Shown: one piece after another, positions 7,760 through 63,110 of the stretch
How the letters are laid out: each line of letters begins with the position of its first letter
Numbering within the stretch: position 1 is the first letter of the stretch
Assembly: GCA_015178975.1 (NCBI GenBank)
Contig: WHVD01000001.1
Location: 2,480,001-2,544,000 of the forward strand
Reading direction: 5' to 3'
DNA from: Hysterangium stoloniferum
Taxonomy: Eukaryota; Basidiomycota; Agaricomycetes; Hysterangiales; Hysterangiaceae
Length of the DNA: 64,000 nucleotides
Made by a program: the position numbers and the translations under genes
Notes under the pieces: generated by a model
The model's database searches: none
Seen by the model: only the letters and a program-made list of their open reading frames with translations
What the model was told of the DNA's origin: nothing

Positions 7760-8160
7760 GGGGATTAGCCATTGATCGTCTTGCTGCAGTTAGCAATAAT
7801 GCTGCATCCACCTTCCTCTTTATCCCATGTAGTCCCACATAATATTAAATCATACATTGTAGTTACATAGGCTGTGTTGCCTTTACTTACCATCCCTGTG
7901 GACATCCCAAATTCTCCCTCGCCTGGACAATGTAATTCATCAACATCATCATAGAATCATTACACTGTGTTGAATCCTTGGAACGAGCTCCGCATGCAAA
8001 ATGTCATGGACTCTGAGGGTAACCATATATCTCTTGCGCACCGCTGCTACTCAAAGGAACCCTCATCATTCTAGACATTTATTACCAATCTTGACAGTTA
8101 GTTGCAGGTTAGAAAATAATATCCCATCGATCCTTCTCATCGTGAGACGTTCATTATTAT
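7760..8160 (-). repeat. Block M (copy 1)
   Basis: This non-coding segment is shared with 25540-25960, 39480-39720, 47640-48040 and 54760-55000. It lies between the protease block and Nf in each. It joins U1 abruptly at about 8160, so U2 and the T tail found in other units were deleted here. I see no conserved reading frame. Confidence 0.6.
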
Positions 8161-8825
8161 GTTTACAGAGCTGTTTCCGAGATTGCGGAGTCCCGTCTGT
8201 CTTGCAGGGCAGACAGGGTCGAAAGAATTACACGAGTATGACGGACTTCAGGATGATTCGACTTGTCAAGACATGACCTCGTTCCTTGTCCATGACAAGC
8301 CCAATAACTCACTGTCGGCATACACTCATAATTGTCCTTCTCCGTGTCCTCGACAGTAGCAAGGTTCTTAAGCGGCGGTCCGCGACTGTTCTATCACCAA
8401 CGCCACCAACTCAATCATCAAAACTTCCCAGCTCATACTCAGCTGCTCACAGAAGAAGAAAAAACACGCTACTCACTCGTTTCGGGTTCGGTTCCAGCAT
8501 GCTCTTCACATACCCGGATACCCAAGCATCCCACAATGCAGCTGCACATGCACCCGCGTCACATCCCCCCCCCACACACTCTCTTTCCAAGCACGGGAGG
8601 CACACGTCGATGCCTTGAAGTAGACCCTATTAGATCTCGTGGTTGGGACGTAAGCATAATAAGTGAAATCTCATTTCCATTGGAAGAAAGGAGGACATAT
8701 TTGTTTGTCAAAGCATTGTAGTGTTTCTTCTCTCTGAAAATATTTTGAAAGACGAGGGCTGGGAAGGTGAGAAAGTCTAGGAGGAAGAATGAGCGCAAGA
8801 CGCAGGACTCCCACACATGTTACGC
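8160..8825 (-). pseudogene. U1: Ubp14/USP5-type ubiquitin protease, N-terminal half (copy 1)
   Basis: Enzymes of this family recycle free polyubiquitin chains. On the minus strand the segment GIDVCLPCL (about 8610) matches the N-terminal variant UBP zinc finger of Ubp14/USP5. About 430 bp further the catalytic-Cys box begins (LxNLGNSCY-like, at the 8160 end) and is cut off by the join to block M. Frames change several times and none runs through. The first about 180 bp (from 8820) are conserved in every copy but their frame is uncertain. It follows the 3' end of an N gene in the same direction. Confidence 0.65.
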
Positions 8826-8979
8826 GATGTCACACAGTTACGGCGAAGAACTACTTTTTTGTAGTTATTTTTGAAAATTAACATTCACGTATTCTTACAT
8901 CTTTTGTTCACAATTTAATCATGGGAAGAGCTCCAGAGCTCCAGTAAATAATAGGCTTTTATATCACAGAATGATATAG

Positions 8980-11720
8980 CTAGACTTGACGGGAAAATGT
9001 TCGATGGGGTGTGATCATGTCCGAGTTTAATCTTCCTCCCATATGCACCTAGGTAGCTGAAAATAATATACACACCTTATTCAAGATTAATACTATTACA
9101 TAAGGACAACATCGACCCTCACGAGTCTGGCTCAAATACCGTGTCCGGCCACACGAGGTCATTAATCCAACTGGGCTCCGCATCATAAGAAGCGCGCAAC
9201 TGCACATCCAGGACAGGTCCCCCCGAGGGGCCAAAAATATAACGTGGAGAAGTAGGTTCAAACAGGAATATGGTACGCGGTTCCACATCTCCGGAGTGAC
9301 TAAATTACTCTGTCAGGCTCTCACATTGATGAAGGGGGAAGTGAAGTGAGACAAACACGTTCTGAGGCATTTCCACGACTACTCTTGTCCAAAAGTGGAT
9401 TACTGTTGTCAAAAAGGGGTCAATATCATTCCCAAAAGACTTCTGTCCTTACTGATCATCAACTCATGTGGAGGGATACCCTTGAGCCCATTTTCCTCTA
9501 TGTAAAGCGGTGCGTATGCTCTCCATGCTTTCTGCACTTCAGACGACGGGCGGAAATCTCCGACATTGACAATGGGCCGGCAGAACTCTTTGATGGTGGC
9601 CTCGCCAATATCATAGGTATATCTACGCGGCAGAAAACTGAACAACGATCAGGTCAGTGTGCTAGCTCGAAAAATACCTTCTCATTGGTTTTCCACCTCG
9701 TATCGTTACGCTCTCACCTTCGTCTAAATATCTAGACCTATGGTTGCCGAGGCGAACAAAAGCCTTGACTAAGGGCTCTATGCCGAGAGTGTCAGAGAAC
9801 CACTCATGTAGATTCCCACACACTACAAAATCGCCTGTAACTTTATCCCGATAGCCCACGTCCCACAAAGCGATCGATCCCAGATCTCCATCCTCGATGT
9901 CGCCCGTGATTGGTTCCAGAAACCCGAAGTCCAGTAGTTGATTGGCCAATTGATGAATGGTGCGCGAGCTTCGAAGTTGTTGATCCATTGAAGCAGTGCC
10001 GAGATACCATGAATCCACGTTGTACATGAATAAGTCTACGATGGAGTCGGGTGATGATGGATTGATCCTAGGGTGACCGGTATTAATACCGGGATGATAT
10101 CTCCCATAGGACCCTGGGACACCGCTGTGCAGTGTCCCGGTAAACACAAGCTTCAGATGATGGCGATTGGCAGGACAGTCTGTGACAGTCACAATTGAAT
10201 CACCGGGGTTTAAAAACTGAATTAACAAAGTTATAATTGACGTCTGAAGTCAGTCGAATTAACGCACAAGCGAGTGAATTTCAATTTCGTTGTTTGAACA
10301 GAATTCAACTAATTCCTAATGTCACATGGTCACATAAGCATTTGCGGGAGAGAAGGTATCCAAGTACGTCACATTGTAAGAATCTCTCTAAAATACATCG
10401 CGTTAGATTGTAAATATCGCGAGTAATTTCATTCACCATGTCGTATAGTGTCAAAATGGTTTCTTTCACATCGGATGATCTAGTGCGTTCGAGCCATTTG
10501 CATGCGTCCTCAGGTTCAGGGCCCGGATTACGGAAAACTTGAAAAAGTACATTGTGTTGTGCGTTGCTGTAGCCCAAGAACTCAGCAATGCTAGGGTCCC
10601 TGAACATGAATGCGATTGGACTACTTGGTTATTTAATCTGATGTGTTTCATTCTTACCATACGTCTTGATAGGAAGTGAGGTCCCGTTCAAACTATATCA
10701 AAAGTGTGATATGTTGCAAATAGTTTCGGAAACCCAAACCAGCCAAAACAAAACTCGCACCTCTTTGTGTCTCAAATTCCACGTGGGTCTCCCGCCTTCG
10801 TACATTTTGACCAATACCGACTTACCGTCACTTTCAGTCTTCGCTTCACAAAGTTTGACATTCCACCGCAAGGCGACCCGATGGTTTCCTGCCTTTTCAT
10901 CGTCATTATCATTATGGTGCGCGATCGATATGGTGCGCAACACTTGGAAATTCCTTCTATGAACCAAACACTATATCATTACTTTAAGCCCACGGACTTG
11001 ATCTTTGAGATGACAGAACGGACGTACGTGTTCACCAATAGGGTTTCTTCCTCTGTCCGTGACCGACGAAAACGAATCAAGGATAATATCGTCCCTTCTG
11101 GTATCATCGACGGCTACGAGTTGAGCGACGGCTAATGAGGTACCCAGCGAAAAATACATCTAAGAGCCAATATGTATCACGACCGACTCTAAGGGTCACT
11201 TTCAGTACGCACCATTGCCTCTTTCTCAGCTTCTTCCATTCGCCTTTCAAGTTTGGCGATAGACTTGTCGCGTTGTCGCATCCAAGACACGACGTGTGCT
11301 TTAAGACCTTTTCTTGGTGTGTATGACCGTGCAAGCGCAAGAACATCCTCGAGTGCACTGAAAACAATCGATTTATTTGTCAGGTACGGTTACACAGCGA
11401 GTCTCAAGTTCTCACTTCTGATAATCGTCCAATATGGTTTTGAAATTGTCCGGGATATTCTCCCACTTCCCCCTCAGCTGATCGTGGAAAGCGACGAGGC
11501 GACGTCCAGTGGTCTGGACAAGGCTATTCAATCTCTCGTTTTGCTCCCCGCTTGCCTAGTGATTGTGAATCATGATCCACATCAGCTTAAACTGGTGTTA
11601 ATGCAGACGACCTACCTTTATAGCGTTCATAATCTCCAAAACAAGGGTCGCTGCACTCTTTAAGCCAGGCAATGGAACGGCATCGCCAGCGACTTTGACA
11701 ACAATGGATGCAATGTCCAT
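8980..11720 (-). pseudogene. N gene copy A: helical domain plus kinase-like protein, one in-frame stop
   Basis: The exon plan equals that of the open copy at 41658-44373. Exons are 11616-11720, 11416-11555, 11213-11357, 10761-11159, 10658-10692, 10368-10599, 9678-10216, 9453-9637, 9357-9381, 9123-9299 and from 9056 downward, nearly all of the same length as in the open copy. Exon 4 is interrupted by TAG at 10971-10973, where the open copy has CAG. An extra C near 9009 shifts the last codons. The N-terminal helical segment (MDIASIV..., with AVPLPGLK) and the kinase-like core (VLVKMYEG, FLGYS) are well preserved. I found no other lesion, so this copy has probably been silent for only a short time, or the stop is bypassed; the first is more likely. 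Confidence 0.75.
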
Positions 11721-12060
11721 CAGCGATGGTCGATGATCTTGGTAGATGGTGAGAGATAGTTGCTCTTTGGCACGTCGAGGCGCTGTATTTGTTATTGGCT
11801 GTGCCTTGGGATGGTGCGCCGGATTGCTAGGGGAAATGCAGTGTTGATCCCACCAACGACACTCATATTCAATGGCCGTCTTCACGGTGTGAACTTTTTC
11901 CGTAGTGGAACTGCTGGAATACAATGGATTAGATTGATCATTCGTCATTAAAAGACGAGACGCACGATCTTATCAATACGTTTATCGAGTAGCATGACAA
12001 ATACCGTGATGTGCTACTGACATATGGCGTTGTAGCGATAAGTCACTTATGGCTTTGGAT
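11721..12060 (-). other. 5' flank of N copy A
   Basis: This upstream region is conserved with 44374-44720, 34606-34940 and 22066-22420. It contains an open frame that runs in-frame into the presumed start only in copy A (from 11948); copy D has an in-frame TAA nine codons before its ATG. It is therefore treated as promoter and leader. A CT-rich leader is not obvious. Confidence 0.5.
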
Positions 12061-17098: not shown

Positions 17099-17489
17099 AC
17101 GCCAATGGTCTATAGGAAAATGCCTTTATCTTTTCGTGAGATATATTTCTGAGTTATATTGGGTCATGATGATCATGATTTCCATCGCTTAGATTCGTTA
17201 TCTAGGAATATTCAAGGTCATTGTAGACATTTCTGGTGAGCACTTCGATTCATTCTAACCCTTACCATCTCAAGCCGCTGTTGTAGTACATTTTAGTGCA
17301 AATGTTACCAACACGGTGTGTCAGGTTCCGATGTCTTCATCCGTGTTCAATATCTCATATCCTACAGTTGTAAGAGTTTAAATTAATCCCATACCTGTAC
17401 CGTAATGATGACGCGGCTATGTCAAACACCAGCTGAGTTGACACTATGAAAGACTCACGTCTTCGGTAGAACCCCTACCTCGCACCGCG
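17099..17489. other. Spacer between foldback element and U1
   Basis: About 390 bp of single-copy sequence without a supported gene or repeat. The protease block resumes near 17490. Confidence 0.4.
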
Positions 17490-18750
17490 GGTACGAATAC
17501 TCAACCGCAGGTTACCCATCCTGTCCCGTAGGCACTCACGCAGCTTCCCCCGCACATACAATGCCTCTCTAAGGCCGGGATCGGATACCCACGCTCAAAT
17601 CATCATGCTCGTCCACACGATAGCGCAAACCTCCTTGCACTACATGCACCGTTACTCTTCCTCCACCTCAAAGCAGAATATGGCAGTAGGCTCCGGCTCC
17701 GGGACGTGTGTTTAGCGTGTTGATGCAGGACTTTAAGAATATATCTGCGAAGAACTCTTGCGCGTCTTTCTGTTTCGTCATCGAGAATTTTTCGTGGACT
17801 CTTCCGGTGAGGGATTTGAACATGGTGGGTTTGATGGGTTCTTGGAGTACGGGCAGTGGCGTCGAGCCACGGCCTCACCAGAACTTCGACGAGGGTAGGG
17901 ACACCGGCGGTGTGAGACTCGAAATGGCTGCGAGGGTGGGATAACCAGCCTGAACGGATTCGGTCCGCGATTATACGCATCTGGAAGTGAAACCAGGATA
18001 TGGGGAGCTCTTCGGTGCAGGAACAGGGGCGGGTGATAAAGGATCAGGAATGGCATGTGCGGAAGGCTGGAAGTGTGAATATCGATGCTGATGCCATGTA
18101 GCAGCTGTTTCCGAGATTGCGGAGTCCCGTCAGTCTTGCAGGGGAGACAGGCTCGAAAACATTACACGAGTATGACGGACCTCAGGATTATTCGACTCGT
18201 CAAGAAATGACCTCGTTCCTTGTCCATGACAAACCCAATATCTCACTGTCGGCATACACTCATAATTGTCCTTCTCCGTGTCCTCGACAGTAGCAAGGTT
18301 CGTAAGCGGCGGTCCGCTACTGTTCTATCACCAACACCACCAACTCAATCATCAAAACTTCCCAGCTCATACTCAGCTGCTCACAGAAGTTAAAAAAAGC
18401 ACCCTACTCACTCGTTTCGGGTCGGTTCCAGCATGCTCTTCACATACACGGATACCCAAGCATCCCACAATGCAGCTGCACATGCATCCGGTCACATCCT
18501 CCCCCACACACTCTCTATCCAAGCATGGGAGGCACACGTCGATGCCTTCAAGTAGATCCTATTAGATCGCGTGGTTGGGGTGTACGCATAATAAGGGAAA
18601 TCTCATTTCCATTGGAAGAACGGAGGACATACTTCTTTGTCAAAGCATTGTGGTGTTTCTTCTCTCTGAAATGAGTCTGAAAGACGCGGACTGGGAATGC
18701 GAGAAAGTCTGGGAGGAAGAATGAGCGCAAGACGCAGGACTCCAGCACAT
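17490..18750 (-). pseudogene. U1: Ubp14/USP5-type ubiquitin protease (copy 2)
   Basis: Reading down the minus strand: the N-terminal zinc finger piece (about 18550), the catalytic-Cys box (LTGLRNLGNSCYMA, about 18125-18095), a segment reading DFQM...ADRIRSGWLSHPRSHF (about 17985-17930), the box corresponding to QQDAEEFF (about 17775-17750, with QKDAQEFF-like changes), and RYRVDEHDDLSVGI (about 17610-17570), which matches the KVRYRVDEQD segment after the second box in the family. Stops and frame changes between the boxes rule out a working enzyme unless several introns are assumed. The His box was not found. The block follows N copy B, with a solo LTR between. Confidence 0.7.
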
Positions 18751-19231: not shown

Positions 19232-19335
19232 ACATCTTCTATTCACAATTGAATCATGGGCAGTACAGAGCTCCAGTAAATAAACAGCCTTTATATCTCA
19301 GAATGATATAGCTAGATGTGACGGGAAAATGTTCG

Positions 19336-22065
19336 CTAGGTTTGATCGTGTCCGAGTTTAATCCTCCTCCCATATGCACTTAGGTAGCTGAAAATACCAT
19401 ACAATCCTTATTCAAGACGTTAATACTATTAAATAAGGACAACATCGACACTCACGGGTCTCGCTCAAGTACCGTGTCCGGCCACACAGGGTCATTAATC
19501 CAACTGGGCTCCGCATCATAAGAAGCGCCCAACTGCACATCTAAGACAGGTCCCCCCGAGGGGCCAGAAATATAACGTGGAGAAGTAGGTTCAAACAGGA
19601 ATATGGTACGTGGTTCCACCTCTCCGGAGTGACTAGATTACTCTGTCAGGCTCTGACATGGATGAAGGGGGAAGTGAAGCAAACAAATTCTGAGGCATTT
19701 CCACAACTACTCTTGTCTCCAAGTATATTACTATTGTCACAATGGGTTCAATATCATTTCCAAAAAACGTCTGTGCTTACTGATCATCAACTCGTGTGGA
19801 AGGACACCCTTGATCCCATTTTCCTCTATGTAAAGCGGTGCATATGCTCTCCATGCTTTCTGCACTTCAAAGGACGGGAAGAAGTCTCCCATATCGACAC
19901 TGGGCCGGCAGAAATCTTCGATGCTGCCTTCGCCAATATCATAGGTATATCTACGCGGCGGAAAACTGAACAATGATCGGGTCTGCTAGCTCGAAAAATA
20001 CCTTTTCATTGGTTTTCCACCTTGTATTGTTACATTCTCACCCTCGTCTAAATATCCAGACCGATGGTTGCCGCAGCGAACCCAAACCTCGACTGACGGT
20101 TCTATACCGAGGGTTTCAGAGAACCACTCATGTAGATTCCCACACACTACAAAATCGCCTGTAACTTTATCCCGATAGCCCACGTCCCACAAAGCGATGG
20201 ACCCCAGATCTCCATCCTCGATAACGTCCGTGATTACTTGCAGAAACCCGAAGTCCAGTAGTTGATTGGACAATTGATGGATGGTGTGCGAGCTTCGAAG
20301 TTGTTCATCCATCAAAGCAGTGCCGAGACACCATGTTTCCACTTTGGACATGAATAAGTCTACGATGCAGTCGGGTGATGATGGATTGAGCGTAGAGTAA
20401 GCGGGATAAACACCGGGATACCAGATCTCGTAGTCCCCTGACGGGTCACGGATCAGTGTTCCGGTAAACACAAGCTTCAGATGACGGCGATTGGTAGGAC
20501 AGTCTGTGACAGTGACAATTGAATCACCGGGAAATGCCAACTGAATAACAAGGTTATAATTAACGCGTCTGATGTCAGGCGAATTAACGAACAAGCGAGT
20601 GAATTCCAATTTCGTTGTTTGCACAGAAATCCCGTAATTCCTAATGTCACATGGTCACATCAGCATTTGCGGGAGAGAAGGTATCCAAGTACGTCACATT
20701 GTAAGAATCCCTCTAAAATATATCACGTTAGCTTGTAAATATCGCGAGTAATTTCATTCACCATCTCCCATAGTCCCAAAATGGTTTCTCTCGGACCGGA
20801 TAATGTAGTGCGTTCGAGCCAATTGTATGCGTCCTCAGGGTCAGGGCCCGGATTACGGAAAACTTGGAAAAGTACATTGTCTTGTGCGTTGCTGTAGCCC
20901 AAGAACTCAGCAACGCTAGGATCCCTGAACATGAATGTGATTGGACTACTTGGGTTATTTTAATCTGATGTGTGACATTCTTACCACACGTCTTGATAGG
21001 AAGTAAGGTCGCGTTGGAACTATACCCAAAGTGTGATATATTGCAAATACTTTCTGAAATCCAAACCAGCCAAAAGAGAACTCGTACCTCTTTGTATCTC
21101 AAATCCCATGTGGGTCTCCCGCCTTCGTACATTTTAACCAATACCGACTTACCGTCACTTTCAGCCTTCGCTTCACAAAGTTTGACACTCCACCGCAAGG
21201 CGACCTGATGATTTCCTGGCTTTTCATCATTATAATGATTATAGTTCGCGATCGATATGGTCCGTAACACTTGGAAATTCCTTCTATGAACCAAACACTA
21301 GATCATTACTATAAGCCCACGGGCATGATCTTTGAAATGACAAAACGAGCGTACGTGTTCACTAATATCGTTTCTTCCTCTGACCGTAATTGATGAAAAC
21401 GAATCAAGGATGCCGCGTAATTGACGTATGATATCGTCCATTCTGGTATCATCGACGGCTACGAGTTGAGCGACGGCTAATGAAGTATCCAGCAAAATGC
21501 ACATCTAAGAGCCAATATATAACGAACGACTCTGAGTGTCACTTTCAGCACGTACCATTGCCTCTTTCTCCGCTTCTTCCAATTGCCTTTGCAGTCTGGT
21601 GATAGACCTATCTCGTTGTCGCATCCAAGACACGACGTGTGCTTTAAGACCTTTTCTTGGTGTGTATGACCTTGCAAGCGCAAGAACATCCTCAAGTGCA
21701 CTGAAAACAATCGATTTATTAGTCAAGTACGGTTACCCAGTGAGTCTCAAGTTCTAACTTCTGATACTCGTCCAATATAGTTTTGAAATTGTCCGGGATA
21801 TTCTCCCACTTCCCCCTCAGCTGATCGTGGAAAGCGACGAGGCGACGTCCAGTGGTCTGGACAAGGCTATTCAATCTCTCGTTTTGCTCCCCGCTTGCCT
21901 AGTGATTGTGAACCATGATCCACATCAGCTCTTAAACTGGTGCTGATGCAGACGACCTACCTTTATAACGTTCATAATCTCCAAAACGAGGGTCGCTGCA
22001 CTCTTTAAGCCAGGCAATGGAACGGCATCGCCAGCGACTTTGACAACAATGGCTGCAATGTCCAT
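19336..22065 (-). pseudogene. N gene copy B, one in-frame stop in exon 4
   Basis: This copy keeps the full exon plan: exon 1 is 21961-22065, exon 4 is 21088-21504, and the last exon ends at TAG 19336-19338. Exon 4 is 417 bp here, 18 bp longer than in copies A and D; the extra bases encode RQLRGI after MDDI, probably the older form. A TAG at 21298-21300 lies at the same codon as the stop in copy A. The downstream kinase-like part (VLVKMYEGGRPTWDLRY, FLGYSNAQDNVLFQVF) and the C-terminal exons read well. No second lesion was noticed. Confidence 0.72.
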
Positions 22066-22429
22066 GAGCGATGGTCGATGATCTTAGTAGATGGTGAGAG
22101 ATAGTTGCTCTTTGGCACGTCGAGGCGCTGTATTTGTTATTGGCTGTGCTCTGGGATGGTGCGCCGGATTGGTAGGAGAAATGCAGTGTTGATCCAACCA
22201 ACGACACACTCATATTCAAAGGTCGTAATCACGGTGTGGACTTTGTCCGGAGTGGAACTGCTGGAATATAATGGATTAGATAGCTCATTCGTCATTAAAA
22301 GAAAGGCCGCACGATCTTTTCAATGGTTTGTCGAGTAAAATGATAGTACAGTGATGTGTTAACTGACATATAGCGTTGTAGCGATAGGTCAGTTGTGCCT
22401 TGGGTAATAAAAAATAAAGATGTATGAGA

Positions 22430-24830: not shown

Positions 24831-24853
24831 TCTGAGTTCATTCTGGGTATTTT

Positions 24854-25540: not shown

Positions 25541-26200
25541 TGACGTGCTAAGGGGGGATTGGCCATTGATCGTCTTTCTGCAGTTAGCAATAACGCTGCA
25601 TCCACCTTCTTCCTCTTTATCGCATGTAGTCCCACATAATGTTAAATCTTACATTACAGTTACATAGGCTGTGTTGCCTTTACTTACACTCCCTGTGGAC
25701 ACCCCAAATTCTCCCTCGCCTGAACAATGTAATTCATCAACATCATCATAGAATCATTACACTGTTGAATCTTGAAAGAGCTCCGCATGCAAAATGTCAT
25801 GGACTCTGAGGGTAACCATATGTCTGTTGCGTGCCGCTGCTACTCAAAGAAACCCTCATCATTCTAGGCATTTATTACCAATATTGACAGTTAGTTGCAG
25901 GTTAGAATATAATATCCCTTCGATCTTTCTCTGATCCGAATCCTGCATGTTGCAGTGGCGCTTTATCGTGAGACGTTCATTATTATGTTCACAGCAAACA
26001 TATATGTATTGCATGTATGCGTGTATGCGTGCAGTTACTCATTATATAACGTACATCCCACATCCTCCATCATAGCTATCTACTCCACAGAGGGTTCAGG
26101 CCACTATCACTTGCCGGCGCAACTTTCGACTGCACCGAAGGATTCTTGTTGTCTGTGAGACAAAAGCAAGACGGGCAAACGACGGTGTCTAATATCATCA
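25541..26200 (-). repeat. Blocks M and T (copy 2)
   Basis: This non-coding sequence is shared with 39480-39900, 47516-48050 and 54620-55000. Landmarks are an alternating GCATG/TGCGTG-rich stretch near 26005-26040 and the word GATAGCTATCTACTCCACAGAGGG. It lies 3' of U2. It may be the untranslated end of the protease gene (inference). Confidence 0.55.
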
Positions 26201-26660
26201 ATGACACACCCGGAACTTCCACATGTCCAATCAACCGCAACAACCGTCTTCCCCGTAGCAAATAATGCCTTCTGACAATGAGCGGTAGGGAATGGCTGCG
26301 AAAGGGGCAGTATTGAAGATTGGGGGGGGAGGGGGCTTTCGTACGGGAGAGGCTGGAGTGAAGCCAGGCAATACAGGACCTGAGGAGCTGTTGGGTACAG
26401 GTACAGGCCTGGGTGAGAAAGGATAGGGGATAGTATATGTGGAAGGCTGGCAGTGTGGATGTTGATTGGAGGGTGTATGCCATGTCGCCACGATTTCCCA
26501 GATCCCTGAGAAATGTCCGTCCTTGAGAGAAGACAAGTTCGAACCCATTGGACAAGTATGAGGTAGGTATCTGAGGATGACTCGAATGTTCAAGGAATGG
26601 CCTCCCTCCTTGTCCATGACACGCGTTGAAGGGAGAATAGCCACCGCTGACCAAGTTTTG
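26200..26660 (-). pseudogene. U2: diverged second copy of the protease Cys-box segment
   Basis: On the minus strand this aligns with the U1 segment around the catalytic Cys: a MDKEGGHS-like start, then NLGNRGDMAYTLQS where U1 has NLGNSCYMAST, then LPAFHIYYPLSFLTQAC. The catalytic Cys is Gly here. After TQACTCTQQ it departs from U1 and runs into a Pro-rich stretch. Long open frames in other registers (up to 192 codons) are alternative frames of the same sequence. Confidence 0.6.
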
Positions 26661-26699
26661 TAGGCACCCACCTCACGTGCAAAAAATGCGTCGCATGTA

Positions 26700-28229: not shown

Positions 28230-28371
28230 CAGAGCTCCAGAGTCCCAGTAAATAAAGGGCTTTTATATCACAGAATGATATAGCTAGACTTGACGGGAAA
28301 ATGTTCGATGGGTGTGATCGTGTCCGAGTTTAATCCTCCTCCCATAGGCACCTTGGTAGCTGAAAATAACA
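28230..28371 (-). pseudogene. 3' end of a further N copy, cut by LINE insertions
   Basis: The sequence equals the last exon and 3' flank of the N genes (acceptor, then the YLGAYGR-like codons and the CTAGACTTGACGGG stop region). It stops at GCTGAAAATAACA, where the LINE material begins. It shows that U1 copy 3 was also preceded by an N gene. Confidence 0.65.
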
Positions 28372-40988: not shown

Positions 40989-41082
40989 ACTCTGGCTCCA
41001 CCTCAAAGCAGAAGATGACAGTAGGCTCCGGCTCCGGGACGTGTGTTTAGCGTGTTGACGCAGGACTTTAAGAATACATATG

Positions 41083-45283: not shown

Positions 45284-46050
45284 GCTTCTGGTAAACGCGA
45301 TCCATTTCATGCTAAAATCATTTTCAAGAAGGCCGTCTTCCCGCCTAAGATCCGATATCCAGGGAAATGGCTTCTCATAACTATGTATACCACCTTTATT
45401 TCCGGGCTTGGCACTAGCGAAGAAGCGAAGATCGGCAGAGTCATAGTAGTGATGGCGCATGTAATCGACCTCAGCTAAAATGGTTCCCCGCAACTTCCTG
45501 GTGACTGCTATGCTGTCGCCTCGATATTCCTATCACACCTTGACGAATACCTTTTAAGCACCCTTAGACAATCGACCGTTCCGTTGAGGAATAAACTCTT
45601 CAAATTAATAAAGGATTATAAGGCTCTATCACTTGAGGGTAAATCCATACTGATAATGTTTGCATGGGGAGCCGTGCTAGTATGGAGAGAAATTGGAGGC
45701 ACGGTTTGGTAAAAGTATCGGAAGAAACCGAATATCATTATCAGCCGTGTCGGCCTGAATAGGTGCCAGCTTGCCCGATCCCCGCTGCCTAAGTCCTGAG
45801 CCAGTCGACAGATCGTATCTGAGGCATCCAGGCATCACTGACGGCTTTGCATAGAAGACCACAGCAAGGGTCACACAGCCTTCCACCAGGGTCACGCAGC
45901 ATGGGCAAATCTTCTTGCGCGGCGCCTTCGATAAGGTATGTTGACGATTTCGAGGCCATGCCCAAAGTCTAAGCCTTGCCAAACACTGCACCATGACGAC
46001 TGAACAAGAAATTCCCAACAGTCCCGTCGCAGTGACAGCACCTGCTCAGA
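45284..46050 (-). repeat. Block Z (copy 2)
   Basis: This is the counterpart of 36118-36890. The minus-strand frame at 45269-45493 reads RGTILAEVDYMRHHYYDSAD and continues past the donor seen in the other copy, because GTGGGT is changed to GCGGGA here. At 46050 it joins plus-strand U1 sequence. Confidence 0.35.
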
Positions 46051-46052
46051 GG

Positions 46053-46925
46053 TCTGTCATACTCGTGTAATGTTTTCGACTCAGTCTCCCCTGCAAGACT
46101 GACGGGACTCCGTAATCTCGGAGCCAGCTGCTACATGGCATCAACATCAAGATTCACACTTCCAGCCTTCCGCACATACAATCCCTCATCCTTTCTCACC
46201 CGCGCCTGTTCCTACACCGAAGAGCTTCCGATATCCTGTTTTGACTTTCAGATGCGCAAGATAGCGGACCGAATCCGTTCAGGCTGGTTATCTCACCCAC
46301 GCAGTCATTTCCCGTCTCACACCGCCGGTGTCCCTACCCTCGTCGAAGTGCTGGTGAGGCCGTGGAACCAATGCCATCGACGGTGATCCCCTCGTTCATC
46401 CCAGATGCCACTTCCCGTATTCTGGGCCACCATGTTCAAATCCCTCATCGGAAGAGTCCACGAGGAAATATCGATGACGAAACAGCAAGACGTGCAAGAG
46501 CTCTTCGCATATATATTCTTAAAGTCCTGCGTCAGCAAGTTAAAAACACGTCCCGGAGCCGGAGCCTACTGTCATCCTCTTCTTTGATGTGGAAAAAGAG
46601 TTACTGTGTATGTATTGCAAGGGTGTGTCCGCTAGCTTGTGGACGAGGATAATAATTTGAGCGTGGGTATCCGATCCCGGCTTTAAAGAGGTCTTGTATG
46701 CGCGGGGAAGCTGCGTGTGTGCGTAGGGAACAGGATGGGTAAACCTGCGGTTGAGTATTGGTGCCCGTGGTGCGAGGCAGGGGTTCCACCGCAGACGTGA
46801 ACTTTCATAGTGTCGTCTCAGTACTATAGACTGATACCGACCAGGTCGTGGATGTGTTTCCAGACGTGCACGTGTTGCGGCTTTCGCTGACATCTTTGTT
46901 GTACATGCGACGAATGTACTGCACG
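46053..46925 (+). pseudogene. U1: ubiquitin protease copy 5, from the Cys box onward
   Basis: It starts 5' of the catalytic box, which reads LGASCYMAST (Asn of the usual NSC changed to Ala, Cys kept). A frame at 46135-46386 continues TLPAFRTYNP, ISCFDFQMRKIADRIRSGW and GVPTLVEVLVRPW. The QQDA box is QQDVQELF (about 46480-46505). Further on come FFDVEKELLCMYCKGV (about 46583-46630) and EYWCPWCEAGVPP (about 46755-46795), corresponding to the zinc-binding CxxC region of the family. A stop after HRR and frame changes break it. This copy best displays the domain order. Confidence 0.7.
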
Positions 46926-46939
46926 TGAGGTGGGTGCCT

Positions 46940-47515
46940 ACACAATGTGATCAGTGGTGGTTATTCTCCCTTCAACACGTGTCATAGACAAGGAGGGAGG
47001 CCAGTCCTCGAAGAGTCGAGTCATCCCAAGGTACATCATACTCGCCCAATGGGTTCGAGCATATCTTCTCTCAAGGACTGACAGGACTCAGGGATCTAGG
47101 AAACAGTTGCGACATAGCATCCACCCTCCAATCAATATGCACACTTCCAGCCTTCCACATATACTATCCCCTATACTTTCTCACCCAGGTCTATACGGGC
47201 ACCCAACAGCTCCTGTATTGCGTGGCTTAACTCCGGCCTCTCCCGTACAAAAGCCCCCTCCCTCCCCATCTTCAATGTTTCCCCGCTCGCAGCCATTCCC
47301 TCCCGGTCGTTGTCAGAAGGCATTATTGCTACCGGGAAGGTGGTTGTTGTGGTTGATTAGCCATGTGGAAGTTCCGGGTGTGTCATTGATGATATTAGAC
47401 ACCGTCGTTCGCCCGTCTTTCTTTTTGTCATTACAGGCAGCAATAATCCTTTGGTGCACTCGAAAGTTGCGCCGGCAAGTGATAGTGGGCCTGAACCCTC
47501 TTTGGAGTAGATAGC
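46940..47515 (+). pseudogene. U2: diverged Cys-box segment (copy 3)
   Basis: It reads LGNSCDIASTLQS in one frame, so the catalytic Cys is kept here, then AFHIYYPLYFLTQ. A 186-codon open frame at 46954-47514 runs in a different register and is Pro/Ser-rich. I regard it as fortuitous. Confidence 0.55.
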
Positions 47516-48170
47516 TATGATGGAGGATGTGGGATGTACGTAATATAATGAGTAACTGCACGCATACACGCATACATGCAATACATATATGTTTGCTGTG
47601 AACATAATAATGAACGTCTCACGATAAGGCACCACTGCAACATGCAGGATTCGGATCAGAGAAGGATCGATGGGATATTATTTTCTAACCTGCAACTAAC
47701 TGTCAAGATTGGTAATAAATGTCTAAAATGATATGGGGGTACGAGGGTTTCTTTGAGTAGCAGCGGCGCGGAACAGATATATGGTTAACCCCAGAGTCCA
47801 TTTTGCATGCGGAGCTCTTTCCAAAGATTCAACACAGTGTAACGATTCTATGATGATGTTGATGAATTATATTTTCCAGGCGAGGGAGAATTTGGAATGT
47901 CCACAGGGAGTGTAAGTAAAGCCAACACAGCCTATGAAACTACAATATATTATTTAATATTATGTGGGACTACATGCGATAAAGAGGAAGAAGGTGGATG
48001 CAACGTTATTGCTAACTGTAGAAAGACGATCAATGGCTAATCCCCCTTAGCACGTCATGGGCAGAGGCAGAAACGATATTAGTGAACACATACGCCCGTT
48101 CTGTTATCTCAAAGGTCATGCCCGTGAGCGTATCGTAATGAGACAGTATTTGATCGACCGAAGAACTTGC
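47516..48170 (+). repeat. Blocks T and M, with a short N exon-4 piece
   Basis: Same order as elsewhere: GATAGCTATGATGGAGGATG, the GCATACACGCATACATGC tract, then M, then from about 48055 a piece of N exon 4 (GRGRNDISEHIRPFC). It stops near 48170 in about 90 bp of unmatched sequence. Confidence 0.6.
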
Positions 48171-48261
48171 ACCCTACGCTGCGTTCCAGCTTACCCAAGG
48201 TAGCTTACGTAATGCTAATATTTCAACACGAAGTGCGTTCAAGGTGTCTCCGCACGGCTTT

Positions 48262-49271
48262 AATGGAAGAACAACTTCGAAGCTCGCACACCATTCGTCA
48301 ATAGGCCAATCACCTACTGGACTTCGACTTTCTACCCCCAACCGCGGGTGACATCGAGGATGGAGATCTGGCGTCCATCGCTTTGTGGGACGTGGGCTAT
48401 CGGGATAAAGTTACAGGCGATTTTGTAGTGTGTGGGAATCTACATGAGTGGTTCTCTGAAACCCTCGGTATAAAACCCTTAGTCGGGGTTCGTGTTAACC
48501 TCGGCAACTATAGGTCTGGATCTTTAGACAAGGGTGAGAGTGTAACAATACGAAGTGGAAAACGAATGAAAAGGTATTTTTTCGAGCTAGCACACTGACC
48601 CGATCGTTGCTCAGTTTTCTGCCGCGTAGATATACCTATGATATTGGCGAAGCCACCATTGAAGAGTTCTGCCGGCCCATGGTCAATGTCGGAGATGTCC
48701 ACCCGTCGTCTAAAGTGCAGAAAGCATGGAGAGCATACGCACCGCTTTACATAGAGGAGAATGGGATCAAGGGTATCCCTCCACATGAATTGATGATCAG
48801 TAAGTACAAAAGTCTTTTGGAAATGATATTGAACCCATCGTGACAATAGTAATATACTTGGAGACAAGAGTAGTTGTGGAAATGCCTCAGAATTTGTTAG
48901 TTTCACTTCCCCCTTCATCAATGTCCGAGCCTGACAGAGTAATCTAGTCACTCCGGAGAAGTGGAACCGCGTACCATATTCCTGTTTGAGCCTACTTCTC
49001 CACGTTATATTTCTGGCCCCTCGGGGGGTCCTGTCCTAAATGTGCAGTTGCGCGCTTCTTATGATGCGGAGCCCAGTTGGATAAATGACCTTGTATGGCC
49101 GGACACGGTATTTGAGCCAGACCGGTGAGCGTCGACGTTGTCCTTATTTAATAGCATTAACGTCTTGAACAAGGTGGATACGTTATTTTCAGCTACCTAG
49201 GTGCATATGGGAGGAGGAGGATTAAACTCGGACACGATCACACCCATCGAACATTTTCCCGTCAAGTCTAG
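48262..49271 (+). pseudogene. N gene copy F, C-terminal exons only
   Basis: It begins within exon 7 (MEEQLRSSHTIR-like) and continues LWDVGYRDKVTGDFVVCGN. It then follows the standard plan through exon 8 (RRYTYDIGEATIEEFCRP), exons 9a/9b and the last exon, ending at TAG 49269-49271 with one extra Arg codon. A small change near 48310 breaks the start of exon 7. There is no 5' half. U1 follows at 49434. Confidence 0.7.
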
Positions 49272-52595: not shown

Positions 52596-54030
52596 CCCAG
52601 CCCTCGTCTTTCAAAATATTTTCAGAGAGAAGAAACACTACAATGCTTTGACAAAGAAGTATGTCCTCCTTTCTTCCAATGGAAATGAGATTTCACTTAT
52701 TATGCTTACGCCCTAACCACGCGATCTAATATGATCTACTTGAAGGCATCGACGTGTGCCTCCCGTGCTTGGATAGAGAGAGTGTGGGTGTGACCCGGAT
52801 GCATATGCATCTGCATTATGGGATGCTTGGGTATCCGTGTATGTGAAGAGCATGCTGAAACCGAACCCGAAACTAGCGAGTAGGGTGTATTTTTCCCTCT
52901 GTGAGCAGCTGAGTATGAGCAGGGAAGTTTTGATGATTGATTTGGTGGCGTTGGTGATAGAACAGTAGCGGACCGCTGCTCAAGAACCTTGCTACTGTCG
53001 AGGACACGGAGAAGGACAATTATGAGTGTATGCCGACAGTGAGATATTGGGCTTCTCATGGACAAGGAACGAGGTCATTTCTTGAGGACTCGATTCATCC
53101 TGAAGTCCGTCAAACTGGTGTAATGTTTTCGAGCCTGTCTCCCCTGCAAGACTGACAGGACTCCGCAATCTCGGAAACAGCTGCTGCATGGCGCTGCTAC
53201 ATGGCATCAACATCAATATTATGCTACATGGCATTAACATCAAGATTCACACTTCCAGCCTTCCGCACATACCATCCCTTATTCTTTCTCACCCATGCCT
53301 GTTCCTGCACCGAAAAGCTCCCCATATCCTGTTTTGACTTTCCGATGCGCAAGATAGCGGACTGAATCTCCTCAGGCTGGTTATCGCACCCTCGCGGCCA
53401 TTTCCCCTCTCACACCGCCGGTGTCGCTACCACCGCTGAAGTGCTGGTGAACTCATGGAACCAATGCTATCGACGATGGTCACCTCGACCATCCTCGACG
53501 CCACTGCCCATATTCCAAGAACCCATCAAACCCACCATGTTCAATTCCCTCATCGGAAGAGTCCACGAAGAATTCTCGATGACGAAACAGCAAGATGAAG
53601 AGTTCTTCGCATATATATTCTTAAAGCCCTGCAGCACCAAGCTAAAAACATGTCCCGAAGCCGGAGCCTACTGTCATCTTCTGCGTTCAGGTGGGACAAG
53701 AGTCACTGCGTATGTAGTGCAAGGGTGTGTGTCCTAGCTTGTGGATGAGCATGATGATTTGAGCGTGGGTATCCGACCCCGGCTTTAGAGAGGTGTTGCA
53801 TACGCGGGGGAGGCTGCGTGTGTGCGTAGGACAGGATGGGTAAACCTCTGGTTGAGTATTCGTGTCCGTGGTGCGAGGCAGGGGTTCCACCGCAGACATG
53901 AGTCTTTCATAGTGTCGCCTCAGTACTATAGGCTGATACCGACTAGGTCGTGGATGTGTTTCCAGACGTGCACGTGTTGCGGCTTTCCCTGACATCTTTG
54001 TTGTACATGCGACGAATTTTCTGCACGTGA
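52596..54030 (+). pseudogene. U1: ubiquitin protease copy 7
   Basis: All boxes are present in order: the zinc-finger piece (about 52750), the Cys box LRNLGNSCCM (about 53160-53190, Tyr changed to Cys), DFQM-like and RSGW-like pieces with stops, then a continuous frame at 53441-53737 through QEPIKPTMFNSLIGRVHEEF and QQDEEFF (Ala of QQDAEEFF lost). The CxxC piece (about 53860) and FPDVHVLRL (about 53960) follow. A short unit (TGCTACATGGCATCAACATC) is partly triplicated after the Cys box at 53185-53250. Confidence 0.7.
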
Positions 54031-54039
54031 GGGGGTGCC

Positions 54040-54620
54040 TACAAAACGTGGTCAGCGGTGGTTATTCTCTCTTCAACGCGTGTCATGGACGAGGAGGGAG
54101 GCCCTTCCTTGAAGAATCGAGTCATCCTCAGGTACGTCATACTCGCCCCATGGATTCGAGCCTGTCTTCTCGCAAAGACTGACAGGACTCAGGAATCTGG
54201 GAAACAGTGGTGACATGGCATCCACCCTCCAGTCAATATGCACACTTCCAGCCTTCCGCATATACTATCCCCTATCCTTTCTCACCCAAGCCTGTACCTG
54301 CACCCAACAGCTCCTCTCGCCTTCCATTGCCTGGCTTAACTCCGGCCTCTCCCGTACAAAAGCCCCCTCCCTCCCAATCTCCGATGCCGCCCCGTTCGCA
54401 GCCATTCCCTACCGGTTGTCGTCAGAAGGCATTATTTTCTACCGGGAAGGCTGTTGTTGTGGTTGATTGGACATGTAGAAGTTCCGGGTGTGTCATTGAT
54501 GATATTAGACACAGTCGTTCGCCGGTCTTTCTTTTGTCATTACAGGCAGCAACAATCCTTCGGTGCAGTCGAAAGTTGCGCCGGCAAGTGATAGTGGGCC
54601 TGAACCATCTGTGGAGTAGA
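54040..54620 (+). pseudogene. U2: diverged Cys-box segment (copy 4)
   Basis: The catalytic position reads NSGDMASTLQS, Cys replaced by Gly, followed by ICTLPAFRIYYPLSFLTQAC in the frame at 54215-54466. A 138-codon overlapping frame at 54207-54623 is in another register. Similarity to U1 runs from MDEEGGPF-like to TQACTCTQQ. Confidence 0.6.
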
Positions 54621-55680
54621 TAGCTATGATGGAGGATGTGGGATGTACGTTATATAATGAGTGAATGCACGCATGCACGCATACATGCAATACATATATG
54701 TTTGCTGTGAACATAATAATGAACGTCTCATGATAAAGCCCCACTGCAACATGCAGGATTCGGATCAGAGAAATATCGATGGGATATTGCATGCGGAGCT
54801 CTTTCCAAAGATTCAACACATTGTAATGATTCTATTTTGATGTTGATGAATTACATTGTCCAGGCAAGGGAGAATTTGGGATGTCCACAGGAAGTGTAAT
54901 TACAAGGCAACACAGCCTATGTAACTACATGCGATAAAGAGGAAGAAGGTGGATGCAGCGTTATTGCTGCGGCAAGATGATCAATGGCTAATCCCCTTTA
55001 GCACGTCATGGTACTTGATTCGTTGTCTGTCACGGGCAGAGGGAGAGGCAGAAATGATATTAGTAAACGCGTACGCCCGTGAGGTTATGGTAATGAGACA
55101 GTATTTGATCGACCGAAGAACTTGCAACTATTACACGCCTGATCGGTCGCGAACCACAATGATTAATATTATGAAAAGGCAGGAAATCATCAGGTCACCT
55201 TGCGGTGGAGTGTTAAATTTTGTGAAGCGAAGACTGAAAGTGACGGCAAGCCGGTGTTGGTCACAATGTACGAGGTGGGAGACCCACTTGAGATTTGAGA
55301 CACAAAGACGAACGAGTTCTATTTTGGCTGGTTTGAATTTCAGAAACTATTTGGAACATATCACACTTTTGATATAGTTTCCACGCTACGTCATTTCCTA
55401 TCAAGACGTGTGGTTAGAATGCAACATATCAGATTAAATAGTCCAAGTAGTCCAATAACATTCATGTTCAGGGACCCTAGCATTGCTGCGTTCTTGGGAT
55501 ACAGTAACACACAAGACAATGTACTTTTCCAAGTTTTCCGTAATCCGGACTCTGAACCTGCCTCCTCATAGCACGAAAATTAAGTTATGGACCCGTTTCG
55601 TCTTTCTCCGTTCCCACCCACTCTTCGAAGCAGTCAGAGGGTACATTCAAACCTCCCAAGTGGGAATAGCGAGTTAAAAA
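54621..55680 (+). pseudogene. Blocks T/M followed by Nf (copy 3)
   Basis: T and M (54621-55000) are shortened by a deletion near 54787. Nf starts at about 55007 with N exon 4 and includes the MRQYLIDRR segment. It passes through exon 5 (SYQDVW-like) and into exon 6 (FLGYSNTQDNVLFQVFRN), then switches to the foreign tail (KIKLWTRFVFLRSHPLF). The frame of exon 4 is broken near 55130-55150. Confidence 0.65.
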
Positions 55681-56129: not shown

Positions 56130-57240
56130 GAGTAGCGTGTTTTTTTTTTCTTCTGTGAGCAGCTGACTATGAGCTGGGAAGATTTCATGATTGAGGTGGT
56201 CGTTGGTGATAGAACAGTAGCGGACCGCCGCTTAAGAACCTTGCTACTGTCGAGGACACGGAGAAGGACAATTATGAGTGTATGCCGACAGTAAGATATT
56301 GGGCTTGTCATGGACACGGAACGAGGTCATTTCTTGAACAGTTGAATCATCCTGAAGTCCGTCAAATTCGTGTAATGTTTTCGAGCCTGTCTCCCCTGCA
56401 AGACTGACGGGACTTCGCAATCTCGGAAACAGCTGCTACATGGCATCAACATCGATATTCACACTTCCAACCTTCCGCACATACCATCCTTTATCCTTTC
56501 TCACCCATGCCTGTTCCTGCATCGAAGAGTTCCCCATATCCTGTTTTGACTTTCAGATGCGCATGATAGCGGACTGAATCCGCTCAGGCTGGTTATCGCA
56601 CCCTCGCGGCCATTTACCGTCTCACACCTCCGGTGTCCCTACCACCGCCGAAGTGCTGGTGCGCCCATGGACCCAATGCCATCGACGGTGATCACCTCGT
56701 CCATCCTCGATACCACTACCCCTATTCCAAGAACCCATCAAACCCACCATGTTCAATTCCCTCATCGGAAGAGTCCACGAAGAATTCTCGATGACGAAAC
56801 AGCAAGATGCTGAAGAGTTCTTCTCATATATATTCTTAAAGCCCTGTGGTAACAAGCTAAAAACACGTCCCGAAGCCGGAGCCTACTGTCATCTTCTGCT
56901 TTCAGGTGGAACAAGAGTCACTGTGTATGTAGTGCAAGGTGTGCGTGTTAGCTTGTGGATGAGCACGATGTTTTGAGCGTGGGACCCCGGCTTTAGAGAG
57001 GTGTTGTATGCGCAGGGGAAGCTGCGTGTGTGCGTAGGGGACAGGATGGGTAAACCTTTGGTTGAGTATTCGTGTCCGTGGTGCGAGGCGGTTCCACCGC
57101 AGACCTGAGTCTTTCATGGTGTCGTCTCAGTACTATGGGCTGATCCCGACCAGGTCGTGGATGTGTTTCCAGACGTGCACGTGTTGCGGCTTTCTGTCAC
57201 ATCTTTGTTGTACATGGGACGAATTTTCTGCACTGGTACC
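56130..57240 (+). pseudogene. U1: ubiquitin protease copy 8, best-preserved boxes
   Basis: The Cys box is complete: LTGLRNLGNSCYMAS starting at 56404, with the Cys codon at 56434-56436. The frame runs on through LPTFRTYHPLSFLTHACSC and CFDFQMRMIAD to a TGA where other copies have CGA. The second box QQDAEEFF is intact at about 56803-56826, in the frame at 56749-56976, preceded by PTMFNSLIGRVHEEF. The CxxC and FPDVHVLRL pieces follow near 57080 and 57165. The N-terminal zinc finger is missing. Confidence 0.72.
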
Positions 57241-57244
57241 TACA

Positions 57245-57778
57245 AAACGTGGTCAGCAGTGGTTATTCTCCCTCCATCTCTTGCCCTATTCATCCATGTC
57301 ACTCTATCCCAGATCAATGGTTACACCTCGAGAGCTTTTCACTGCTTCTTTTGTACCGTGTACAAGGTACGTACTAATAAATGTAGCAGTAGCACCTGGG
57401 AAGCTTGGATTATTGCGTTGGTGGCGTTGGTGGCGTTGGTGGCATTGGCGTTGGTGGCATTGGTGATAGACAGTAGCAGCCCGCTGGTTGATTAGCTGCT
57501 GTTAAGGAGAAAGAGAAGGAGAAGGGAGTTCACAGTATGCCGACAGTGAGGTATTGCGCGTGTCATGGACAAAGATGGAGCCCATTCCTTGAAGAGCCGA
57601 GTCATCCTCAGGTATGTCACACTCGTCCAATGTGTTCCATCCTGTCTACTCTCCAGGATTGACAGGACTCAAGAATCTGGGAAACAGTTGCGAAATAGCA
57701 TCCACCTCCAATCAATATTCACACTTCCAGTTCACACTTCCAGCCTCCCACATATACTATCCCTATCCTTTCTCACCC
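57245..57778 (+). pseudogene. U2: diverged Cys-box segment (copy 5), truncated
   Basis: It reads LTGLKNLGNSCEIASTSNQY, with the Cys kept. A stretch at 57300-57540 resembles the U1 5' part and includes a minisatellite. It is cut after TTTCTCACCCAG by the A+T-rich element. Confidence 0.6.
57415..57464 (+). repeat. 9-bp minisatellite (GTTGGTGGC type)
   Basis: About five to six units of GTTGGTGGC/GTTGGTGGCA type occur. Other copies of the block have a single GGTGGCGTTGGTGATAG at this place, so this is a local expansion. Confidence 0.7.
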
Positions 57779-61515: not shown

Positions 61516-61635
61516 TAACAAAGTTTTTTGTCGATAATATTCACTTTTAAGAGCATATAACATGATATCAAGCATTTCACACAGTATTTGACGTTTTTTA
61601 GAGCCTCTCATCCACAAGTACAGTTGTTTCAGTGT

Positions 61636-61713
61636 CGCAGCAGTTACCTTCCTAATTAGGAAGTGCCGCGCAGGTCGCGGCAGTCGGCCTAATTAGGAAG
61701 GACAACTGCCGCG
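61636..61713. repeat. 78-bp imperfect palindrome
   Basis: The arms 61636-61670 and 61676-61713 are inverted copies with a 5-nt centre (CAGGT). Each arm contains the smaller palindrome CCTAATTAGG. The inner part GGAAGTGCCGCGCAGG nearly equals the right end of the insert (GGAAAGTGCCGCGCAGG on the minus strand at about 62027-62043). Confidence 0.75.
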
Positions 61714-62052
61714 TCATGCAAGTTTTTCGTGTAAACCTAGAACCCATGTCATTTAGAAGTTATATTTTATTATTTAAGACTTTAATAAGTATATTTGAGA
61801 ATTAATACCACTCAAGGAAGGGCTAAAACCAAGTATGTGCCAATTAAAGTGGTGCACAAGGTATATTTCAGCAGGAAAATGTACACTAGATGTAACAGTG
61901 CTCATGTTTTGATGATATAATGTCAAATATAATTTCATTTTGGTAATTTTCAATAAAAAATTGACGAAGTATCTACTGATTTAGAAAAAAGAAACATGTC
62001 GCGGCACTTGCGCGGCAGCGCGACACCCTGCGCGGCACTTTCCTGTAGCCCT

Positions 62053-63110
62053 CAGGAACCCTAGCGTTGCTGAGTTCTTGGGCTACAGTAACGCACAAGA
62101 CAATGTACTTTTCCAAGTTTTCCGTAATCCGGGCCCTGAACCTGAGGACGCATGCAATTGGCTCGAACGCACTAGATCATCCGATGTGAAAGAAACCATC
62201 TTGGGACTGTGGGACATGGTGAATGAAATTACTCGCGATATTTACAAGCTAACATATATTTTAGAGGGATTCTTACAATGTGACGTACTTGGATACCTTC
62301 TCTCCCGCAAATGCTGATGTGACAATGTGACATTAGGAATTATCTGAATTCTGTTCAAATAACGACTTTGCAACTTACTCCCTTGTTCGTTGATTCGACT
62401 GACATCGAGGTGGAAAACCAATGAGAAGGTATTTTTCGAGCTAGCACACTGACCCAATCGTTGCTCAGTTTTCTGCCGCGTAGATATACCTATGATACTG
62501 GCGAAGTCAGTATCGAAGATTTCTGCGGGCCTCATGTCGATATCGAATATTTCTGCTGGCCCTAGTGTGAAGTGCAGAGAGCATGGAGAGCATATGCACC
62601 ACTTTACATAGAGAAAAATGGGATCAAGGGTGTCTCTCCACACAAGTTGATGATCAGTAAGCACAGAAGTCTTTTGGAAATGATATTGAACCCCTTGTGG
62701 CAACAGTAAACGAATGGGAGATACAAGTAGTTGTGGAAATCCCTCAAAACCTGTTTGTTTCACTTCCCCCTTCATCAATGTAAGAGTCTGACAGAGTAAT
62801 TTAGTCACTCCGGAGATGTGGAACCGCATACCATATTCCTGTTTGAACATACGTCTCCCCGTTATATTTCTGACCCCTCGGGGGGGACCTGTGGATGTGC
62901 AATTGCGCGCTTCTTATGATGCGGAGCCCAGTTGGATAAATGACCCTGTGTGGCCGGACACGGTATTTGAGCCAGACCCGTGAGTGTCGATGTTGTCTTT
63001 ATTTGATAGTATTAACGTCTTGAATAAGGCGGCTACGTTATTTCCAGCTACCTAGGTGCATATGGGAGGAGGATTAAACTCGGACACGACCACACCCATC
63101 GAACATTGTT
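62053..63110 (+). pseudogene. N gene copy G, internally deleted
   Basis: Exon 6 starts at the insert border (NPSVAEFLGYSNAQDNVLFQ) and reads to the donor. Almost all of exon 7 is missing: only GGKPMR-like codons remain near 62410. Exon 8 follows (RRYTYDTGEVSIEDFCGP, with a small duplication of the IEYFCWP-like piece), then 9a/9b and the last exon to about 63110. A frame change near 62560 and a 2-nt loss near 63108 add to the damage. Confidence 0.68.

Follow-up and report, generated by a model that had tools for sequence, protein, structure and literature searches.

We analysed a 64,000-nucleotide window of the genome of the basidiomycete Hysterangium stoloniferum (contig WHVD01000001.1, here C1, positions 2480001-2544000), which lies inside an array of two repeated sequences: a gene, N, and a fragment, U1, related to the deubiquitinase gene Ubp14. 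Comparison of the copies shows that selection keeps the reading frame of N, a gene of several exons, open, with a conserved helical front part and an excess of amino-acid change at two short C-terminal segments, and that U1 is frame-broken in every copy compared, a pseudogene fragment. An earlier note on this DNA had read the pair as one amplified module, in which an MLKL-like protein with a helical bundle and a degenerate kinase stood beside a polyubiquitin-chain protease, perhaps at a self/non-self or cell-death locus. On our best reading, N belongs with the hypervariable fungal recognition genes and is not a proven relative of MLKL or of kinases.

The genome searched comprises 111,116,353 bases in 554 contigs, with C1 being 4.44 Mb long, and 264 kb of it (the window and C1:1785001-1985000) were examined closely. 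The majority sequence of N has eight exons, introns that are mostly GT-AG, and a conserved stop. In the best copy of the window, copy D on the minus strand, exons 1-4 lie at 44269-44373, 44063-44202, 43862-44003 and 43411-43809, and exons 5-8 at 43017-43376, 42917-42964, 42327-42865 and 42058-42286 (stop included). All seven introns of this copy are GT...AG, those of 34 and 40 bp being short. The model encodes 653 amino acids (aa); a product of 676 residues, as first proposed, was not reproduced.

We tested N for selection and lesions in 30 near-full-length array copies, namely 10 of the 16 aligned from the 264 kb and 20 from elsewhere in the genome; diverged copies from contigs C17 and C98 and a reference row were left out, and the preference for near-full-length copies understates decay across the whole array. 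These copies hold 39 stops, including 15 occurrences of one shared TAG (24 without it), against 128.0 expected when each copy's own substitutions are placed at random. Frameshifting indels occur at 0.63 per kb in N exons and 5.42 per kb in N introns, at substitution levels of 6.6% and 6.7%, respectively. The ratio of non-synonymous to synonymous substitution rates (dN/dS; Nei-Gojobori, pairwise, bootstrapped over codons) was 0.39 (bootstrap range 0.28-0.54) for exons 1-3, the helical region, 0.47 for exon 4, 0.55 for exon 5 (0.42 without its first 31 codons) and 0.71 for the block e7. The block e6, which is exon 7 of copy D, gave 1.05 as a whole (0.80-1.37); within it, codons 28-49 and 141-160 pooled gave 1.79 and the rest 0.77. 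Counting changes by parsimony over a FastTree tree, we found 219.2 non-synonymous and 17.8 synonymous changes at e6 codons 146-160 (p=1.1e-10, or 4.6e-9 corrected for 43 windows), and 138.3 and 12.7 at codons 35-49 (p=8.6e-6, or 3.7e-4 with the same correction).

Nearly every copy carries its own version of these segments. Codons 146-160 of e6 occur in 29 distinct variants in 30 copies, and codons 28-49 in 27 variants in 27 in-frame copies; constrained controls gave 17 variants in 29 copies (e6 codons 68-87) and 18 in 30 (exon 5 codons 50-68). Residues 147, 149, 151 and 153 of e6 are V, V, V and L in 27-29 of 30 copies, and residues 148, 150, 152 and 154 each show 5-8 residue types. From this alternation we infer a beta-strand with one face buried and one variable, such that the variable residues would form surface. 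Diversifying selection at a localised stretch, with a surface suggested by the alternation, is a mark of the recognition gene class. Hence, the suggestion that N is a candidate for self/non-self recognition is borne out, in so far as copies can be judged from their sequences, by a conserved front and diversifying C-terminal segments.

Several points weigh against assigning N to recognition genes. Only 4 of the 30 copies are free of lesions (copy D, L037, L045 and L047, the last fetched without its first exon), and three of these have splice flaws: L037 a GC donor, L045 no AG at a doubtful exon 5 acceptor, and L047 two non-GT donors. Copy D alone is both lesion-free and canonical at all splice sites. 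Codon 63 of exon 4 is TAG in 15 of 30 copies, including window copies A and B, and CAG in the other 15. The excess of amino-acid change over e6 as a whole is non-significant (p=0.10), and its hypervariable segments were chosen after a sliding scan. The comparisons pooled for pairwise dN/dS are not independent of one another, and parsimony counts are raised by exchange between copies; the p-values are therefore nominal. All copies tested come from one species. The match of the helical region to the MLKL N-terminal family (PF22215, MLKL_N; residues 27-130 of L037, E=0.0037) scores 17.2 bits where the cut-off is 27, and the rest of N matches nothing.

We considered whether N and U1 might both be junk in an inert segmental-duplication array, with N appearing intact through recency or gene conversion. 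A stop or frameshift in 26 of the 30 chosen copies, the one TAG common to 15, the transposable elements that interrupt the array and the dead U1 would all fit. However, N exons have about ninefold fewer frameshifts than introns at equal substitution, stops are fivefold below expectation without the shared TAG (threefold with it), the front half has a dN/dS of 0.39-0.47, and only two segments show the excess of amino-acid change. Recent duplication alone is insufficient to account for these contrasts, and we consider an inert array unlikely; the same lesion and dN/dS contrast led us to reject N as a plain pseudogene. We also rejected the idea that the TAG copies encode a working shorter product: just past the TAG, their dN/dS of 0.54 is close to the 0.47 of TAG-free copies, and all 15 carry other lesions too.

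Some of the lesions may stem from the gene model. The acceptor of the 34-bp intron 4 lacks AG in 11 of 30 copies. The first ~31 codons of exon 5 have a dN/dS of 1.09 and hold 9 of the 15 stops in that exon, so that they may belong to the intron. When this stretch is taken as intron, L033 and L035 become lesion-free and the constraint strengthens.

The domain content of N gave less than had been proposed. The MLKL-like call is weak, since MLKL_N matches one copy below the cut-off, and neither the L045 piece nor the C17 piece scanned alongside it matched. The only match in the genome above the MLKL_N cut-off lies at C104:54410-54739 (L048; 30 bits). The degenerate kinase is unsupported. By eye, N has what we take to be a kinase-like order of motifs (a VLVK-like strand, SIVTVTD...LKLVYTG, DSWCLG), and every test was negative: no kinase match for N in Pfam or PDB sequences, an hhalign Prob value of at most 0.4 against a small profile of three kinases from the same genome, and shuffled Smith-Waterman comparisons with kinases that were non-significant in 8 of 9 pairs, with one at 0.03. 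Fold prediction of a single N exon gave a mean predicted local distance difference test score of 32.9. We found no NACHT or NB-ARC domain at E<=5 in seven N rows (four near full length, three partial).

Two loci on C98 and one each on C17 and C224 hold diverged relatives of N. At one C98 locus (L025, C98:59001-65000), an alpha/beta-hydrolase-like domain at ~850-1830 replaces the helical front (PF12697, E=5.1e-4, below cut-off). On C2, hydrolase matches at 228843-229505 are followed, ~1.35 kb on, by an N motif at 230856 (region to 230885). These candidate fusions suggest that front domains, the putative effectors, may have been exchanged on a common N back half. The L025 hydrolase has relatives in many places of the genome, with 412 first-look candidates.

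We searched the genome with one conserved 30-mer each from N and U1, allowing up to 3 mismatches. The N 30-mer has 122 sites and that of U1 106; the same 30-mers read backwards, as controls, have none. Among the 100 sites listed per motif, 58 of N and 63 of U1 fall in the interval 1.80-2.81 Mb of C1, and others on C113, C140, C145, C198, C244, C278 and a few more contigs. The array spans C1:1793866-2812795, ~1 Mb in mid-contig, with long runs of sites on the same strand and with inversions. Several of the other contigs are short (C145, 108,554 bases; C140, 111,838; C198, 74,098; C244, 49,564; C278, 33,429; C342, 20,436) and could belong to the array without having been placed in it. The same match scores recur on C145, C198 and C278, which points to some redundancy, and part of the sites are only fragments; the 122 N sites are therefore not a gene count. 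DNA searches with N and U1 gave at least 47 matches each (among the best 40 of 309 and of 203 candidates scored), and the helical part of N alone at least 91 distinct loci (among the best 150 of 241 matches). N copies that lie farther apart on C1 are no more diverged from each other (Spearman -0.02, p=0.83, 18 copies), and we rejected a greater likeness between neighbouring copies. Strong CpG decay of the array was rejected as well, the ratio of observed to expected CpG being 0.75 in array tiles, 0.81 in the window, 0.87 around the Ubp14 gene on contig C312, 0.98 in the N majority sequence and 0.88 in that of U1.

The repeat unit has the order N, U1, a further N fragment (N') and a spacer. A counterpart of the spacer at 22610-24907 lies between N' (24967-25535) and N copy B, from which we take the units to be arranged head to tail. 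The window contains the following features.

8980..11760, minus strand: N copy A with its 3' flank; TAG in exon 4, one further stop and one frameshift
19312..22105, minus strand: N copy B with its 3' flank; two stops and one frameshift
28284..28369, minus strand: remnant of N 3' flank ahead of a U1
32493..34644, minus strand: N copy C, truncated at the 3' end
42058..44373, minus strand: N copy D, modelled as a complete gene (653 aa) and free of stops and frameshifts
43862..44373, minus strand: exons 1-3 of copy D, constrained helical N-terminal region
42327..42865, minus strand: exon 7 of copy D (e6), which holds both hypervariable segments (28-49 and 141-160, in codons of the block analysed)
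48238..49271, plus strand: 3' part of N, inverted copy
62052..63121, plus strand: N pieces
8169..8988, minus strand: Ubp14-derived segment behind copy A (upstream DNA and 5' part), ending inside the first Cys box; homology to C312 from ~8988
17433..18395, minus strand: U1 pseudogene fragment behind copy B
26059..27767, minus strand: U1 with both Cys-box copies, frames broken
39840..41083, minus strand: U1 remnants downstream of copy D, separated from the U1 5' end (~41494) by part of N exon 7 (41086-41332)
46049..47531, plus strand: U1 copy
52890..54640, plus strand: U1 copy used as query for the genome search; PF00443 at E=0.00042, under the family cut-off
56144..57276, plus strand: partial U1 copy
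7193..7742, minus strand: N' (region of N exons 4-5) behind U1, third piece of the unit
24967-25535, minus strand, and 55077-55560, plus strand: further copies of N'
5085..6976, minus strand: spacer behind N', with the counterpart at 22610-24907
516-4800: remains of a Copia-type element (RVT_2, and an SH3_retrovirus domain)
50186-52154: remains of a Copia-type element (RVT_2)

In addition, the stretch at 58000-62000 has a GC content of ~36% and two open frames (289 and 192 aa), with no Pfam family at E<=0.01.

The source of U1 can be recognised on C312, which carries a Ubp14 gene with open exons: the catalytic one encodes 273 aa (PF00443, E=1.4e-25), and another contains zf-UBP (PF02148, E=1.7e-22). 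U1 aligns to this gene, upstream DNA included, with 70% identity over ~750 bp around the start. Its majority sequence has no counterpart of C312 ~1867-2460, the site of the zf-UBP exon; this stretch gave no blastn match in the 264 kb, and tblastx found two short pieces of it, of 20 and 23 aa (E=4.9e-4), both in a single U1 copy on C1. There is a second, partial Cys box, which reads GNSGDM in the majority sequence. Compared with the catalytic exon of C312, 18 of 18 U1 copies contain frame-breaking gaps, 19-40 per copy given a noisy gap placement, and a -1 break near exon position 297 and a +2 break near 455 each recur in 14 of the 18. The copies differ by 10.5% from their majority sequence and have 7.38 short indels per kb, 5.43 of these not multiples of three. 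This rate is similar to that of N introns and far above that of N exons, and U1 thus evolves without coding constraint; the match of 5.43 with the intron value of 5.42 is partly chance, U1 being more diverged from its majority sequence (10.5% as against 6.7%). We conclude that U1 derives from a Ubp14 of the C312 type and is a pseudogene fragment in all copies compared. Because many of the frame breaks are common to the copies, U1 was probably dead before the amplification. Hence, the assignment of U1 to Ubp14-type deubiquitinases is right as to descent and fails as to a working protease: U1 can be aligned with Ubp14/USP5 but differs in its broken frame, its missing zf-UBP segment and its doubled Cys box. 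On the grounds of the broken frames and the missing segment, we rejected U1 as an active partner of N.

The linkage of N and U1 stood up well. In the window, we located N 3' ends at 8980, 19312, 28284, 41634, 49271 and 63121; the first and fifth agree with the earlier note, which had placed the others at 19336, 28230, 41658 and 63110. A U1 5' end follows on the same strand in 6 of 6 cases, at 169, 566, 167, 140, 165 and 593 bp, and in 21 of 21 cases in the 264 kb, at 30-593 bp (a 22nd N locus was dropped, its 3' end being missing). As claimed, every surviving N 3' end thus has a U1 behind it in the same direction. What is called the N 3' end sits ~400 bp beyond the stop codon of N (in copy D, stop at 42058 and flank to ~41634) and close to the start of the Ubp14-like DNA (~8988 in copy A). 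Conversely, 20 of the 41 matches to the U1 5' end in the 264 kb have no N 3' end ahead of them, and 13 of these 20 are merely a stretch of ~85 bases repeated within U1.

Across the genome, at least 70 of the 100 listed N sites are followed on their own strand, at no more than 4 kb, by a listed U1 site, and in 45 of these 70 the distance is 1.78-1.86 kb. Control positions gave far fewer: on the same strand 5 N sites have a U1 site upstream, and on the opposite strand 2 have one downstream and 1 has one upstream. The figure of 70 is a lower bound because 100 sites were listed per motif and because the U1 30-mer is lost behind window copies A and D, which were scored as unlinked, yet have a U1 5' end behind each. 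Among the matches listed in the DNA searches, 22 of 32 N 3' ends have a U1 within 2 kb. The proposal that N and U1 were amplified as one block is supported by these counts. Linkage holds for most listed N sites and not for the parental gene, since there is no N within ~7 kb upstream of the C312 Ubp14; for the same reason, we rejected the idea that N was carried along from the Ubp14 locus. At three of the four diverged N loci, homology to the unit crosses the junction between N and Ubp14 (unit position 3773). It ends at 4050 at one C98 locus and at 4249 at the other, and on C17 at 3924, only ~150 bp past the junction. On C224, homology ends at 3754, just before the junction, and an inverted piece lies downstream. 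The crossing at both C98 loci and C17 argues that the fusion of N with Ubp14 is older than the array.

Taking these observations together, we lean, with modest confidence, towards N being a family of intracellular recognition genes, possibly acting in cell death, with U1 as a passenger. A unit of N, the Ubp14 fragment and N' would have been multiplied, largely head to tail, into the array of ~1 Mb. The conserved helical N-terminus would be the effector, perhaps membrane-disrupting like the four-helix domains of HeLo and MLKL, and the hypervariable loop and beta-strand face would bind variable ligands, such as a non-self partner, a parasite or a rival copy. Duplication and exchange would yield new specificities by birth and death while most copies decay, and U1 would be tied to N by the founding fusion.

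N might instead be a family of selfish killers, that is, poison/antidote or meiotic-drive genes that multiply because nuclei or spores lacking them are killed; the hypervariable part would then determine specificity between copies. The many copies and the two segments under diversifying selection would suit such genes, and known fungal drivers are multicopy and fast-evolving. No antidote partner was seen in the unit, however, U1 and N' being broken fragments, and we regard a killer family as improbable. A bolder extension of the recognition model, which we think quite doubtful, would have the array generate the diversity of intracellular receptors of a new class, with a conserved helical death effector on a non-repeat domain whose loop and strand face are rebuilt from about a hundred mostly silent cassettes, giving strain-specific repertoires. 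Most N copies could also be silent donors for gene conversion, supplying a small number of expressed N genes in the manner of antigenic-variation arrays. The scarcity of intact copies, the near-uniqueness of the variable segments even in broken copies and the flat divergence along C1 would fit such an archive; no expression site was identified, however, and birth and death alone accounts for the data, so that we rate an archive as highly unlikely. Joint action of a pseudokinase and a Ubp14-type deubiquitinase as a cell-death module, which the tight 21 of 21 linkage and the existence of fungal two-gene clusters of a protease and a pore-former (PMC10197012) might have favoured, is refuted for the U1 copies read, given their broken frames with many breaks in common, the absence of zf-UBP, the GNSGDM box and the presence of an open Ubp14 on C312, and is exceedingly improbable overall.

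Several known systems offer points of comparison with the recognition model for N. In an account of the four-helix effector domains of basidiomycete NOD-like receptors (NLRs), the Goodbye/HeLo/MLKL_NTD superfamily is given as the most frequent in Basidiomycota (PMC9815663). N resembles the BaMLKL, MLKL_NTD and HeLo-like effectors of that account in its helical N-terminal region, with the weak PF22215 match of one copy, and differs from BaMLKL-type NLRs in that no NACHT or NB-ARC was found and the match is below the curated cut-off. HELL domains joined to kinase or pseudokinase domains have an MLKL-like architecture (PMC12881547), resembling the plan proposed for N of a helical front and a putative kinase-like middle; the accessible text mentions neither a hypervariable C-terminal part nor an array, and N has both. 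The hnwd genes of Podospora, which act in non-self recognition, are like N multicopy and rapidly diversifying, but there WD repeats vary, whereas in N it is two short segments without a Pfam family (PMC2873952). Fungal gasdermin genes are paired with S8 or CHAT proteases in two-gene clusters (PMC10197012), and N and U1 likewise place a putative cell-death gene beside a protease-like sequence, with the difference that the protease part is a pseudogene fragment. Judged by titles and the openings of abstracts, with subscription papers mostly outside, the literature on MLKL/HeLo, pseudokinases, allorecognition, hypervariable tandem arrays and Ubp14 yielded no published account of such an array.

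The N-U1 array illustrates that a dead fragment of a housekeeping gene which shares a duplication unit can mimic a conserved functional partner. Somatic recognition in basidiomycetes is described as poorly understood (PMC8229728). With more than 100 sites, a constrained front and two sharply localised hypervariable segments, the N family would be a testable candidate for a recognition gene outside the NLR and WD-repeat classes.

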